NCBI GenBank assembly: GCA_947589545.1 | Contig: CANQBA010000003.1 | Location: 1-64,000, forward strand | Length of the DNA stretch: 64,000 bases | Direction: 5' to 3' | DNA from: an uncultured Oscillospiraceae bacterium | GTDB lineage: Bacteria > Bacillota > Clostridia > Oscillospirales > Oscillospiraceae | Shown here: piece by piece, positions 41,154 to 51,039 of the stretch | How the letters are laid out: every line of letters begins with the position of its first letter | Numbering within the stretch: position 1 is the first letter of the stretch | Program-made: the position numbers and the translations under genes | The notes under the pieces: model-generated | Databases searched by the model: none | The model's input: the letters and a program-made list of their open reading frames with translations, nothing else | Told to the model about the DNA's origin: nothing

Positions 41154-41212
41154 GCCGATAACGGCAAGGGCGTCGCGGGCTTTTGTCCGCGATGTGTCCG
41201 GCCGTTCTTTTT
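41154..41212 (+). promoter_or_regulatory. gdhA leader attenuator with the shared nitrogen-gene hairpin
   Basis: Terminator form: outer arms AACGGC (41160-41165) / GCCGTT (41201-41206), inner arms GTCGCGG (41172-41178) / CCGCGAT (41187-41193), followed by CTTTTTTG. Alternative form: CAAGGGC (41165-41171) / GCTTTTG (41179-41185) with a 7-nt loop, which uses the same bases and would break the terminator. A GCC-GATAAC-GGC mini-hairpin (41154-41165) precedes it. Placement 60 bp before the start codon suggests antitermination control, probably by the ANTAR protein. Confidence 0.6.
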
Positions 41213-41274
41213 TGTTTCTTTTTTCTTATTTTCTTTATTTTCTGATGAAATTTATTTTTATGGAGGTTTCATAC

Positions 41275-42615
41275 ATGAAGAACGCGTACCTTATCGGCGT
41301 CCTTGAGACTGTCAAAAAGCGCAACCCCGCCGAGCCCGAGTTCATCCAGGCCGTCACCGAGGTTCTGGAGACGCTGGAGCCCGTCATCGACAAGCGCCCC
41401 GACCTGGTGGAAGCCAACGTGGTAGAGCGCATCGTGGAGCCCGACCGGCAGATCATCTTCCGCGTCCCCTGGGTGGACGATCAGGGCAAGATCCAGGTCA
41501 ACCGTGGCTACCGCATCCAGTTCAACGACGCTATCGGCCCCTACAAGGGCGGCATCCGTCTCCACCCCTCCGTCTATATCGGCATCATCAAGTTCCTGGG
41601 CTTTGAGCAGATCTTCAAGAACAGCCTGACCACCCTGCCCATGGGCGGCGCCAAGGGCGGCTCCGACTTCGACCCCAAGGGCAAGTCAGACAACGAGGTC
41701 ATGCGCTTCTGCCAGAGCTTCATCAATGAGCTTTACCGCCACATCGGCAAGGACATCGACGTCCCCGCCGGCGACATCGGCACCGGCGCCCGGGAGATCG
41801 GCTACATGTTCGGCCAGTACAAGAAGCTCACCGGCGAGTGGTCCGGCATCCTCACCGGCAAGGGCATCCCCTACGGCGGCTCTCTGGCCCGCACCGAGGC
41901 CACCGGCTACGGCCTGTGCTACTTCACCGACGAAATGCTGAGAGCCAACGGCAAGTCCTTTGAGGGCCAGACCGTGGTGATCTCCGGCTCCGGCAACGTG
42001 GCGATCTACGCCCTGCAGAAGGCCACTCAGCTGGGCGCCAAGGTGGTGGCCATGTCCGACTCCAACGGCTACATCTACGATCCCAACGGCGTGGACTTCG
42101 CCGCCGTCAAGCAGCTGAAGGAGGTGGAGCGCAAGCGCATCAAGGAGTACGCCGCCACTCATCCCGGCTCCGAGTATCACGAGGGCTGCGGCGGCATCTG
42201 GACCATCCCCTGCGATATCGCCCTGCCCTGCGCCACCCAGAACGAGATCGACAAGGCTTCCGCCGAGACCCTGGCCAAGAACGGCTGCTACTGCGTGTCC
42301 GAGGGCGCCAACATGCCCTCCACCCCCGAGGCCATCGAGGTCTATTTCGCCAATAACATGCTCTACGGCCCCGCCAAGGCCGCCAACGCCGGCGGCGTGG
42401 CCACCTCCGGCCTTGAGATGTGCCAGAACAGCGCCCGTCTGAGCTGGACCTTCGAGGAGGTGGACGGCAAGCTCCACGACATCATGAAGAACATCTTCGC
42501 CGCCTGCGACAGCGCGGCCCGTGAGTACGGCATGCCCGGCAACTACATGGCCGGCGCCAACATCGCGGGCTTCCTCAAAGTCGCCGAGGCCATGAAGGCC
42601 CAGGGCTGCGTGTAA
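41275..42615 (+). CDS. gdhA: NADP-type glutamate dehydrogenase
   Basis: 446 residues, hexameric GDH type I. It makes glutamate from 2-oxoglutarate and ammonia. The catalytic region [29 protein letters not shown] (catalytic Lys and Asp) and [10 protein letters not shown] is intact, and the Rossmann motif VISGSGNVA binds the cofactor. The ATG at 41275 with GGAGG nine bases upstream is preferred to a longer in-frame start at 41194 that would lie in the terminator. First gene of the nitrogen cluster. The cofactor preference is by family resemblance. Confidence 0.96.
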
Positions 42616-42661
42616 GAGGCCGTCGAAAGCGATCTTTGATCCGGGCTTTTGTCAAGCTGTC

Positions 42662-49502: not shown

Positions 49503-50977
49503 TGGGAAAACCTACCGGATTTCTTGAATATGACCGGCACGTCAATCCCTCCCAGTCCCCCGCCCAGCGCGTCAGGCACTGGAACGAATTCCACCCGCCC
49601 TTGGAGCTGGCGGAGCGTCAAAAGCAGGCGGCAAGGTGCATGGACTGCGGCGTCCCCTTCTGCCAGTCAGGCATCGCCCTGGGCGGCGGCTTCACCGGCT
49701 GTCCTCTGCACAACATGGCCCCGGAGTGGAACGACCTTATCTACCACGGCAACTTTGAGGAGGCGTACAAGCGCCTGCGCAAGACCAACAACTTCCCCGA
49801 ATTCACGGGCCGTGTCTGCCCCGCCCTCTGCGAGGCGGCCTGCACCTGCGGCCTCCACGGCGACCCGGTGACCGTCCGGGAGAACGAGCTTTTCGTTGTG
49901 GAAAAAGCCTTCGAGGCCGGCGTCGTCCGGCCCCAGCCCCCGGCAGTGCGCACAGGCAAGCGCGTCGCCATCGTGGGCTCCGGCCCGGCGGGCCTGGCCG
50001 CGGCGGATCAGCTGAATCGCCGGGGCCACACGGTCACCGTCTTTGAGCGGGCCGACCGGGTGGGGGGTCTGCTGATGTACGGCATCCCCAATATGAAGCT
50101 GGAGAAATCCGTCATCGACCGGCGGATCCGGATCATGCGGGACGAGGGCGTGGAGTTCAAAACCGGCGCCGACGTGGGCCGGGACGTGCCGGCGGGGGGA
50201 TTGACCAGCGTCTTTGACGCGGTGATCCTGTGCTGCGGCGCGAAAAACCCCCGGGATCTGAAGGTTCCTGGCCGGGAGGCCCGGGGCGTGCACTTCGCCG
50301 TGGACTATTTGACCGCCGCCACCAGGAGCCTGCTGGATCCGGGCCGCAAGTCCGGCGAGATCAGCGCCAAGGATAAGCAGGTGGTGGTAGTCGGCGGCGG
50401 CGACACGGGCAACGACTGCGTAGGCACCGCCATCCGCCAGGGGTGCGCCGGCGTCACCCAGCTGGAGATGATGCCCCGGCTCCCGGAGAAGCGCGCGGAC
50501 AGCAACCCCTGGCCGGAGTGGCCCCGGGTGGAAAAGACCGACTACGGCCAGCAGGAGGCCATTGCCCTGTTCGGCCATGACCCGCGGCTCTATCAGCGGA
50601 CGGTGAAGGAGATCGTGGCCGGTGAAAACGGCGCGGTCAACGAGATCGTCACCGTGTCCCTGATGCCCCGGCAGGAGAACGGCCGGACGGTGATGGCGCC
50701 GGTGGAGGGCTCCGAGGAGCGCCTTCCCTGTGAGCTCCTGCTCATCGCGGCGGGCTTTGTGGGCGCGGAGAGCTACATCGCGGAGGCCTTCGGCGTGGAC
50801 ACCGACGCCCGCGGCAGTATCGCCGCCCCGGTGGGGTACAGGACCCGCGACCCCAAGATCTTCGCCGCCGGCGACGCCCGGCGGGGCCAGTCCTTAGTGG
50901 TGCACGCCATCGCCGAGGGGCGCGGCGCGGCCATGGAGGTGGACAAATTCCTGATGGGCTACACGAATCTGATCTGA
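49502..50977 (+). CDS. gltD: Glutamate synthase, small (GltD) subunit
   Basis: 491 residues. The N-terminal domain carries cysteines for two 4Fe-4S clusters (RCMDCGVPFCQSG, GCPLHN, RVCPALCEAACTCGL). FAD binding VGSGPAGLAAADQL and NADPH binding VVGGGDTGNDCVGTA follow, and a final FAD segment FAAGDARRGQSLVV. It passes electrons from NAD(P)H to GltB. The start codon overlaps the gltB stop (TAATG). Confidence 0.97.
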   Translation: MGKPTGFLEYDRHVNPSQSPAQRVRHWNEFHPPLELAERQKQAARCMDCGVPFCQSGIALGGGFTGCPLHNMAPEWNDLIYHGNFEEAYKRLRKTNNFPEFTGRVCPALCEAACTCGLHGDPVTVRENELFVVEKAFEAGVVRPQPPAVRTGKRVAIVGSGPAGLAAADQLNRRGHTVTVFERADRVGGLLMYGIPNMKLEKSVIDRRIRIMRDEGVEFKTGADVGRDVPAGGLTSVFDAVILCCGAKNPRDLKVPGREARGVHFAVDYLTAATRSLLDPGRKSGEISAKDKQVVVVGGGDTGNDCVGTAIRQGCAGVTQLEMMPRLPEKRADSNPWPEWPRVEKTDYGQQEAIALFGHDPRLYQRTVKEIVAGENGAVNEIVTVSLMPRQENGRTVMAPVEGSEERLPCELLLIAAGFVGAESYIAEAFGVDTDARGSIAAPVGYRTRDPKIFAAGDARRGQSLVVHAIAEGRGAAMEVDKFLMGYTNLI

Positions 50978-51004
50978 ATTATATATCTTCTTATTGTGTA
51001 TAGA

Positions 51005-51039
51005 AGAGCGACGGTGCTTTCCTGCCCGCCGCTCTTTTT
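51005..51039 (+). promoter_or_regulatory. amt leader attenuator with the shared nitrogen-gene motif
   Basis: Terminator form: AGAGCG-A-CGG (51005-51014) pairs with CCG-C-CGCTCT (51026-51035), then TTTT. Alternative form: AAGAGC / GCTTTC around the six-base loop GACGGT (51010-51015), almost identical to the glnA leader. It can terminate gltBD readthrough before amt unless relieved. A second GC-rich hairpin (GCCGGCCC / GGGCCGGC, 51057-51082) lies nearer to the start codon. Confidence 0.65.

Follow-up and report, generated by a model that had tools for sequence, protein, structure and literature searches.

Three nitrogen genes in a 64,000-nucleotide (nt) stretch of a contig from an uncultured Oscillospiraceae bacterium, encoding glutamate dehydrogenase (gdhA), glutamine synthetase (glnA) and an ammonium transporter (amt), are each preceded by an intrinsic terminator whose 5′ arm can also fold into a small hairpin with a loop of six nucleotides, a hexaloop. 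The whole stretch is called the window here, and positions refer to it. The cluster runs on one strand in the order gdhA, glnA, an ANTAR gene, gltB, gltD and amt with a fused P-II domain. Collectively, the data make it quite probable that these genes form a regulon of the NitR type, in which the ANTAR protein holds one hexaloop hairpin and is predicted to relieve termination of the nitrogen genes. A single ANTAR circuit for the glutamate, glutamine and ammonium genes had been proposed in a first-pass annotation, and it is supported by covariation of the hairpin stem, by a loop and C:G closing pair resembling those of NasR and EutV targets, by the position of the ANTAR gene beside glnA (47/60 loci in a class-wide sample) and by the precedent of NitR.

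Hairpins and terminators in the three leaders

The element shared by the leaders is an R-A-N-G-G-Y hexaloop with a C:G closing pair. The bases of the glnA hexaloop hairpin are those of the 5′ arm of the glnA terminator, so that the two folds are mutually exclusive, and the terminator stem covaries. The overlap with a terminator that had been suggested for all three hairpins was recovered by folding (Table 1). Since the terminators are predicted at −19 to −31 kcal/mol and the hairpins at −3.6 to −3.7 kcal/mol, a binder would be needed to favor the hairpin.

The first-pass annotation described the common hairpin correctly for glnA and amt and in the wrong register for gdhA. It had used AAGGGC as a stem arm pairing with GCTTTT; these letters are present, but the fold of the first 23 nt makes AAGGGC the loop of the hairpin CGGC[AAGGGC]GTCG. 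The two divergent gdhA leaders hold the shifted hairpin (CGGC[AAAGAC]GTCG and TGGC[AGGGAC]GCCG) and, by inspection, lack the original register. Among 21 gdhA leaders, consisting of the window and 20 of 26 gdhA matches with the start in reach, the hexaloop is found in 19 (window counted); its sequence is AAGGGC in 17 of these and altered in two. The two leaders lacking it are L167, with a dissimilar upstream region, and L171, from another genus.

The glnA promoter TTGACA-17-TATAAT is present in 18/18 same-genus glnA leaders (window counted). Past the glnA terminator lies a putative second promoter, whose −35 hexamer falls within the 3′ arm of that terminator, and an extended −10-like TGnTAnA(A/C)T was seen in 15 of these 18 leaders. 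No second promoter-like site was found in the window's gdhA leader. For amt, no promoter-like site was found in the window before the gene, and promoter-like sequence 5′ of the amt hexaloop was seen by eye in Oscillibacter-like loci; the window's amt leader would therefore gate readthrough from gltBD. As a separate observation, TTGCA-containing elements recur by eye in same-genus leaders 5′ of the glnA (~42715-42795) and gdhA (~41085-41120) promoters, which suggests an extra DNA-binding regulator.

Conservation and covariation of the hairpin

The strict hairpin C[RANGGY]G over a terminator was sought in a nearer set of 80 loci with ANTAR relatives, in which glnA and amt were located and 160 nt of leader were scanned (window counted). 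It was found in 54/70 glnA and 28/32 amt leaders, as compared with averages of 0.075 and 0.05 and a maximum of 1 over 40 dinucleotide shuffles. Among control loops, the reversed loop occurred in 6/70 glnA and 0/32 amt leaders and GGANRY in 1 and 0, while the complement and RCNGGY occurred in none. A relaxed R1..G4 pattern matched 61/70 glnA and 30/32 amt leaders, against 3.45 and 2.45 in shuffles. The amt leaders missed by the strict motif are L034, whose hairpin lies 265 nt upstream and thus outside the 160 nt, L050, and L056 and L060 (loop AAGGAC).

The hairpin alignment (A3) holds 52 of 53 distinct glnA, amt and gdhA hairpins; the omitted row comes from L097, where it overlaps the −35 box, and the leader hairpin proper of L097 is identical to another row. 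G at loop position 4 (G4) occurs in 52/52 hairpins, although the pattern demanded it, and position 1 is A in 18 and G in 7 of the 25 distinct nearer-set glnA hairpins. The second stem pair is GC in 34, AU in 12 and GU in 6 of the 52, and pair 4 is kept in 49. The glnA and amt rows had been admitted if they matched the loop pattern, had the C:G closing pair, were paired at position two and kept four or more of the seven pairs, and the gdhA rows had been chosen by a fixed 3′ arm pattern, so that the conservation of the loop and inner stem is partly due to selection. Without the pairing filter, pairs 2, 3, 4 and 5 are kept in 52, 30, 50 and 27 of 52 glnA leaders, respectively.

Covarying pairs in orthologous leaders, on which the first-pass annotation had staked its proposal, are present both in the hexaloop stem across lineages and in the terminator stem within the genus. 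The hexaloop stem scored 0.433 against 0.253 in shuffled alignments, with 0/500 shuffles as high, and exceeded all slid versions. Within the genus (28 rows), the terminator stem showed five pairs changed on both sides and 95.8% of cells paired. The leader alignment (A5) was edited by hand: T runs were shortened, the first amt hairpins of L044 and L048 took the place of their previous rows, and the amt row of L050 was dropped.

Probable regulon within the genome

A covariance model was built from the genus glnA and amt leaders, with the window's glnA and amt sites among its rows. Searched against the window's own genome with this seed, it returned glnA (E 1.1e-9), amt (E 1.1e-7) and a third site of the same design (E 0.0014), which adds a fourth leader to those of gdhA, glnA and amt. 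This leader consists of TTGACA-17-TAAAAT followed by AAAGGC[AAGGGA]GCTTTT over a terminator, and it heads an operon of CP_ATPgrasp_2, Alpha-E, transglutaminase and two AstE/AspA-like genes. The ATP-grasp operon gene was found in 2/21 genus genomes searched, and the element is kept in both leaders by eye. Two further matches (E 0.036 and 0.054) were judged by eye to be ordinary terminators and rejected. Of 34 genus genomes, 29 have a covariance match at E 0.1 or better, chance-level matches included. A pattern search of the own genome gave five exact matches: those at glnA and amt, and three more at which inspection by eye showed no terminator. It also gave eight one-mismatch matches, two of which were inspected.

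ANTAR protein and its receiver

The ANTAR protein is encoded within the cluster, as the first-pass annotation had it, and no other ANTAR gene was found in the rest of the genome (assembly 99.85% complete, 148 contigs). The ANTAR domain scores 60.6 bits against a cut-off of 27.3, and the Pfam scan of the protein reported no receiver domain. Profile matches among solved structures were Rv1626 (1s8n), EutV (6wsh), NasR (4akk) and AmiR (1qo0), and the receiver-like part was aligned over EutV and Rv1626. EutV residue numbers were mapped onto this alignment by our own count. The acceptor Asp54 of EutV corresponds to Gly53 in the window protein; Asp or Glu stands at the acceptor position or the preceding one in 0/81 nearer-set proteins, and Cys52 is found in 80/81. 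The receiver had been noted as apparently degenerate, and it indeed has no phospho-acceptor, in the window protein as in all of the nearer set. Met160, corresponding to EutV Met172, is invariant in 81/81; loss of Met172 is reported to abolish RNA binding by EutV (PMC8934654).

A receiver with no phospho-acceptor implies that the switch is probably a partner protein or ligand rather than a histidine kinase. No kinase was found among the five cluster proteins scanned, and no search was made farther away. By analogy with AmiC-AmiR, the signal would probably arrive via a partner or ligand, for which glutamine synthetase (GS) itself and the P-II domain of Amt are candidates. The P-II fusion of amt is, in its own right, a candidate nitrogen sensor.

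Proposed mechanism

From these features we infer the following course of binding and antitermination. By default, polymerase would stop ~45-60 nt past the predicted gdhA and glnA starts, and also just after gltD, before amt. The ANTAR protein would bind one weak, C:G-closed R-A-N-G-G-Y hairpin (~−3.6 kcal/mol) and keep the terminator from forming, so that polymerase could pass. Because no P1 (recruitment) hairpin is present, one hexaloop would have to suffice. The ANTAR gene belongs to the run of genes that follows the glnA attenuator, an arrangement that could lead to self-amplification, and the second glnA promoter beyond the terminator may supply basal GS and ANTAR protein. The sign of control, induction on nitrogen limitation, is presumed by analogy with what a review reports of NitR of C. 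saccharobutylicum, which antiterminates genes of GS and glutamate synthase (GOGAT) on nitrogen limitation (PMC6316151).

One hexaloop or two

Of the nearer-set glnA leaders, 52/70 combine the strict motif with a sigma-70-like promoter. With the start predicted 7 nt after the −10 box (unmapped), the core stem of four pairs begins 0-11 nt past that start in 52/52, which leaves too little room for a P1 hexaloop hairpin. The same design was then surveyed across the class, where ANTAR genes occur in 156/293 genomes and the ANTAR neighborhood was taken from 60, mostly of different families. At 47/60 loci glnA is on the same strand and its end adjoins the start of the ANTAR gene, an adjacency that we take to be a mark of NitR circuits. 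Of these 47 glnA leaders, 18 have a single hexaloop over a terminator within 160 nt (shuffle mean 0.6, maximum 2), as found with a [AG][AT]NGNN loop and any Watson-Crick closing pair. All 18 are closed by C:G, which the pattern did not demand, and 17 have A at position 1 (A1), where the pattern accepted A or G. A P1 candidate (A..G.. loop, at least three pairs, within 45 nt) was found in 0/18, some of them with 20-50 nt of predicted leader ahead of the hairpin.

The same scripts do detect the tandem design. Eleven rows emerged from the dual scan, of which L181, L183 and L234 are dual-hexaloop glnA leaders; eight others were read as chance, either because the second loop is the terminator's own (L072 at glnA, L087 and L094 at amt), because the first loop lies in the promoter region (L041, L083) or because the match lies elsewhere (L070 with two rows, L091). 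In a midpoint-rooted tree of the window protein and 59 class proteins, single-leader rows are spread over several branches: five in a 15-row branch beside all three dual rows, eight in a 12-row branch (window included) and five in a 32-row branch, plus L201. Of the 59 proteins in the class sample, 30 have N at the acceptor position, 13 have D, 12 have G, two have H, and one each has E and S. This position is G in 8, N in 6 and D in 4 of the 18 single-leader proteins and acidic in 3/3 dual-leader proteins (D, D, E) versus these 4/18, a suggestive link between phosphorylation and the two-hairpin design, drawn from few and related rows. It is rather likely, on this evidence, that a widespread clostridial family of ANTAR antiterminators uses a single 5′-proximal hexaloop, often with no room for a recruitment hairpin, and has receivers that mostly cannot be phosphorylated.

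The strongest rival, which we consider unlikely, keeps ANTAR control and the two-site rule, with a second contact other than a C:G-closed hexaloop immediately 5′, such as an atypical P1, another RNA acting in trans or, for amt, hairpin B. Antitermination by EutV and full affinity of NasR are reported to require two hairpins (PMC8934654, PMC7496416), and an amt leader can offer a second element. The dual scan also matched L072 (glnA) and L087 and L094 (amt), with the terminator's own loop as the second one. Hairpin B, with the candidate hexaloop AAGGGT, recurs as RANGGT in 14/16 same-genus amt leaders (the window and leaders in the range L033-L049), 46-52 nt before the start and with covarying flanks; an AAGGGG version lies 59-63 nt before the start in L070 and L092. 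It was otherwise unseen among 15 amt leaders outside the genus, where the L058 match is the terminator's own loop. In the window and in several relatives, the lowest-energy fold of B closes a smaller internal loop. However, B lies 3′ of the amt terminator and would hence be transcribed too late, only 0-11 nt come before the core stem in 52/52 glnA leaders, and a P1 candidate was found in 0/18 class leaders, including those with 20-50 nt available. An anti-Shine-Dalgarno role of hairpin B was also considered and dropped, as the CCTTC able to pair with GGAGG is absent in L035.

Weighing the proposed single-hexaloop circuit

Several observations weigh against control by a NitR-type ANTAR protein through one hexaloop. 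On the side of the motif, 16/70 nearer-set glnA leaders do not have its strict form (L040, L054, L066, L067, L068, L069, L077, L093, L098, L100, L102, L103, L104, L106, L108 and L110), of which L040, L054, L066 and L077 retain G4 with one loop letter altered. Loop position 1 is G in the window's glnA and amt hairpins (A in gdhA), versus the A1 of ANTAR targets. In the class sample, 29/47 glnA genes beside an ANTAR gene have no motif in 160 nt; 21 of these 29 GlnA proteins are 42-48% identical to that of the window, some motif carriers are as distant (39-47%), and several of the motif-less loci have a gltB-like match upstream. As for covariation, two of five measures (two-side-changed pairs and further pair types) were not above shuffles, many compared rows are close relatives, and within the genus the hexaloop stem, 97.6% kept, shows zero two-sided changes and is not above shuffles. 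The last result could be explained by U in the 3′ arm, which can pair with either A or G in the 5′ arm as the terminator partner varies.

On the side of the protein, EutV Tyr164, which stacks on G4, corresponds to His152 in 81/81 nearer-set proteins and Arg168 to Gln156 in 81/81, and Asp occupies the acceptor position in 4/18 class single-leader proteins. The known systems also speak for two contacts: a longer linker between the hairpins is reported to abolish EutV antitermination (PMC8934654), and NasR binds a single hairpin with an affinity of ~12 uM versus ~1 uM for the pair, ~12-fold weaker (PMC7496416). Finally, the element does not always coincide with the gene. Genome G298 (a close relative of G058) keeps a hexaloop-like glnA leader by eye, whereas its ANTAR gene (L286) has lost most of its middle; we read this remnant with a large internal deletion as a recent loss. 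The fragmented assemblies G016 and G017 have leader matches (5.1e-9 and 8.4e-11) and no ANTAR match; since one of them has no GlnA and in the other GlnA is truncated at a contig end, these cases probably reflect an assembly gap.

The G298 leader, kept without an intact ANTAR gene, is also what could be expected if the leaders were ordinary attenuators whose hairpin is bound by another protein (GS or P-II) or by a small molecule, with the ANTAR protein a bystander, and GS is described as a moonlighting regulator in Bacillus (PMC6316151). We hold this to be very improbable. The loop and closing pair agree with the descriptions for EutV and NasR; among 20 of the 137 class genomes without ANTAR genes, the one with a GlnA more than 60% identical is G298, which carries the remnant; and no Rfam family matched at gathering scores at the window leaders or anywhere in 10 loci, the three weak matches near glnA with relaxed thresholds (E 0.04-0.98) being far under gathering scores.

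There is likewise little to recommend the view that the short RNAs of 45-60 nt left by termination titrate the ANTAR protein in trans as a sponge, a role proposed for EutX/Rli55, besides or in place of cis antitermination. A 12/12-consensus glnA promoter 5′ of the terminator with a second promoter-like site beyond it would suit such a role, and EutX is described as having an extra single hexaloop with G4 (PMC8934654), but in the gdhA leader, which is built alike, no second promoter-like site was found, and a sponge alone leaves the mutually exclusive folding unexplained. Least credible of all is that the inverted repeat after the −10 box is the DNA operator of a repressor and the terminator incidental: the genus glnA repeat does lie at a near-constant distance from the −10 box, but the window's amt leader has the element with no promoter-like site found, pairing is maintained via G:U pairs, the terminator partner covaries, and the spacing from −10 box to element differs between lineages (9-20 nt).

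Gene cluster and neighboring features

The genes gltB and gltD (44976..50977) follow the ANTAR gene on the same strand with small gaps, and the synteny is kept in relatives. Inspected by eye, the gltB leaders showed no common motif. The closest relatives found are uncultured Oscillospiraceae assemblies labelled 'Lapin', which probably points to the rabbit gut. Elsewhere in the window, group II intron signatures lie at 8751-10544 (Rfam RF02001, RF01998, RF00029).

Table 1. Positions of leader elements and genes of the nitrogen cluster, with the additional leader found elsewhere in the same genome
Feature	Position	Strand	Details
gdhA promoter, TTGACA-17-TAAAAT	41121..41149	+	11/12 consensus bases; also in genus leaders
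gdhA intrinsic terminator and U tract	41160..41213	+	stem 41160-41206, −30.9 kcal/mol, z −4.65
gdhA hexaloop hairpin, CGGC[AAGGGC]GTCG	41162..41175	+	corrected register; minimum free energy fold of first 23 nt, −3.6 kcal/mol
gdhA, glutamate dehydrogenase	41275..42615	+	Pfam PF00208, PF02812
glnA promoter, TTGACA-17-TATAAT	42798..42826	+	12/12 consensus bases
glnA hexaloop hairpin, AAGGGC[GATGGT]GCTTTT	42836..42853	+	9 nt after −10 box; −3.7 kcal/mol
glnA intrinsic terminator and U tract	42836..42877	+	stem 42836-42875, −23.4 kcal/mol, z −4.43
Putative second glnA promoter, TTGCCC-17-TATAAT	42868..42896	+	extended −10; beyond terminator
glnA, glutamine synthetase type I	42939..44270	+	Pfam PF00120, PF03951
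ANTAR protein (NitR-like)	44405..44935	+	receiver-like N-terminal part and ANTAR domain; PF03861 E 1.2e-16
gltB, glutamate synthase	44976-49502	+	open reading frame (ORF); named from length, position and pathway, not from a family scan
gltD, glutamate synthase	49502-50977	+	ORF, Pfam domains
amt intrinsic terminator and U tract	51003..51039	+	stem 51003-51037, −19.0 kcal/mol, z −5.27; covaries
amt hexaloop hairpin, AAGAGC[GACGGT]GCTTTC	51004..51021	+	inside terminator 5′ arm
Hairpin B, candidate hexaloop AAGGGT	51057..51082	+	closing C51066:G51073; 3′ of amt terminator; covariation
amt, ammonium transporter with fused C-terminal P-II domain	51115..52812	+	PF00909, PF00543
Fourth leader, same design (L278, own genome)	G000:C28:29758-29790	-	covariance E 0.0014

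Relation to known ANTAR systems

The circuit type, antitermination at glnA of the NitR kind, is already known. The window shares with the NitR circuit an ANTAR protein together with GS/GOGAT genes, the ANTAR gene standing beside glnA in the window and its relatives; it differs in the order and species and in having gdhA and amt-PII added as targets. In C. thermocellum, expression of an ANTAR gene is reported to have dropped with that of neighboring genes under redox perturbation (PMC4676874), and computed ANTAR targets are described as preceding glutamine synthase, glutamate synthase and ammonium transporter genes (PMC3369931).

EutV and NasR are described as recognizing two tandem hexaloops (PMC3369931, PMC8934654, PMC7496416). 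The EutV system (Ramesh 2012; Walshe 2022) resembles the present one in a hexaloop whose position 4 is G and whose position 1 is a purine, mostly A, in the overlap with the terminator 5′ arm and in a receiver-ANTAR protein with the conserved Met, whereas here there is no P1, no acceptor Asp, and His and Gln stand at the Tyr164 and Arg168 positions. EutV is also reported to bind isolated P1 and P2 about as well as the pair (PMC8934654). NasR and the nasF leader of Klebsiella oxytoca likewise combine a C:G-closed hexaloop with nitrogen genes, and selection of NasR ligands by systematic evolution of ligands by exponential enrichment (SELEX) favored a C:G closing pair, A1 and G4; NasR differs in its nitrate-sensing domain and tandem hairpin (PMC7496416). 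AmiC-AmiR of Pseudomonas aeruginosa provides a pseudo-receiver that cannot be phosphorylated and has an ANTAR output, AmiR being under its partner AmiC (PMC8934654). NmPAL of Nakamurella multipartita, which is reported to carry an ANTAR domain (PMC8934654), and the engineered riboptoregulators are similar in that a receptor on one small hairpin toggles exclusive RNA folds, and dissimilar in that they are light-controlled, engineered and act on translation with no natural terminator (PMC11381354). The dual-hexaloop clostridial glnA leaders (L181, L183, L234), considered here together with the predictions of Ramesh 2012, share the glnA target, loops with G4 and mostly A1, and the terminator overlap; unlike the present leaders, they hold two hexaloops 18-22 nt apart, and the distance from the −10 box to the terminator-side stem is 63-67 nt in L181 and L234.

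The single-hexaloop design near the RNA 5′ end appears to be new, being undescribed in the literature searched, the 2007 NitR study (Stutz et al. 2007) aside. Surveys of actinobacterial ANTAR targets are described as curated for dual stem-loops (PMC8164766), and the EutV paper remarks that mycobacterial loops do not always obey the dual motif (PMC8934654).

Implications

The 2022 EutV structure paper takes one hexaloop as the minimal ANTAR site, yet it states that the dimer must touch both to stop termination, and it leaves the role of single-hexaloop motifs to further work (PMC8934654). The leaders analyzed here are natural test cases for this role, since they are short, close to the predicted start, covarying and linked to the genome's sole detected ANTAR gene. 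They would widen the NitR circuit so as to include gdhA, amt-PII and an ATP-grasp/transglutaminase operon. They also raise the question of what activates an ANTAR protein that takes no phosphate. If a single-hexaloop family is indeed widespread in clostridia, the two-hairpin rule derived from EutV, NasR and AmiR would fail for much of the glnA-linked ANTAR branch.

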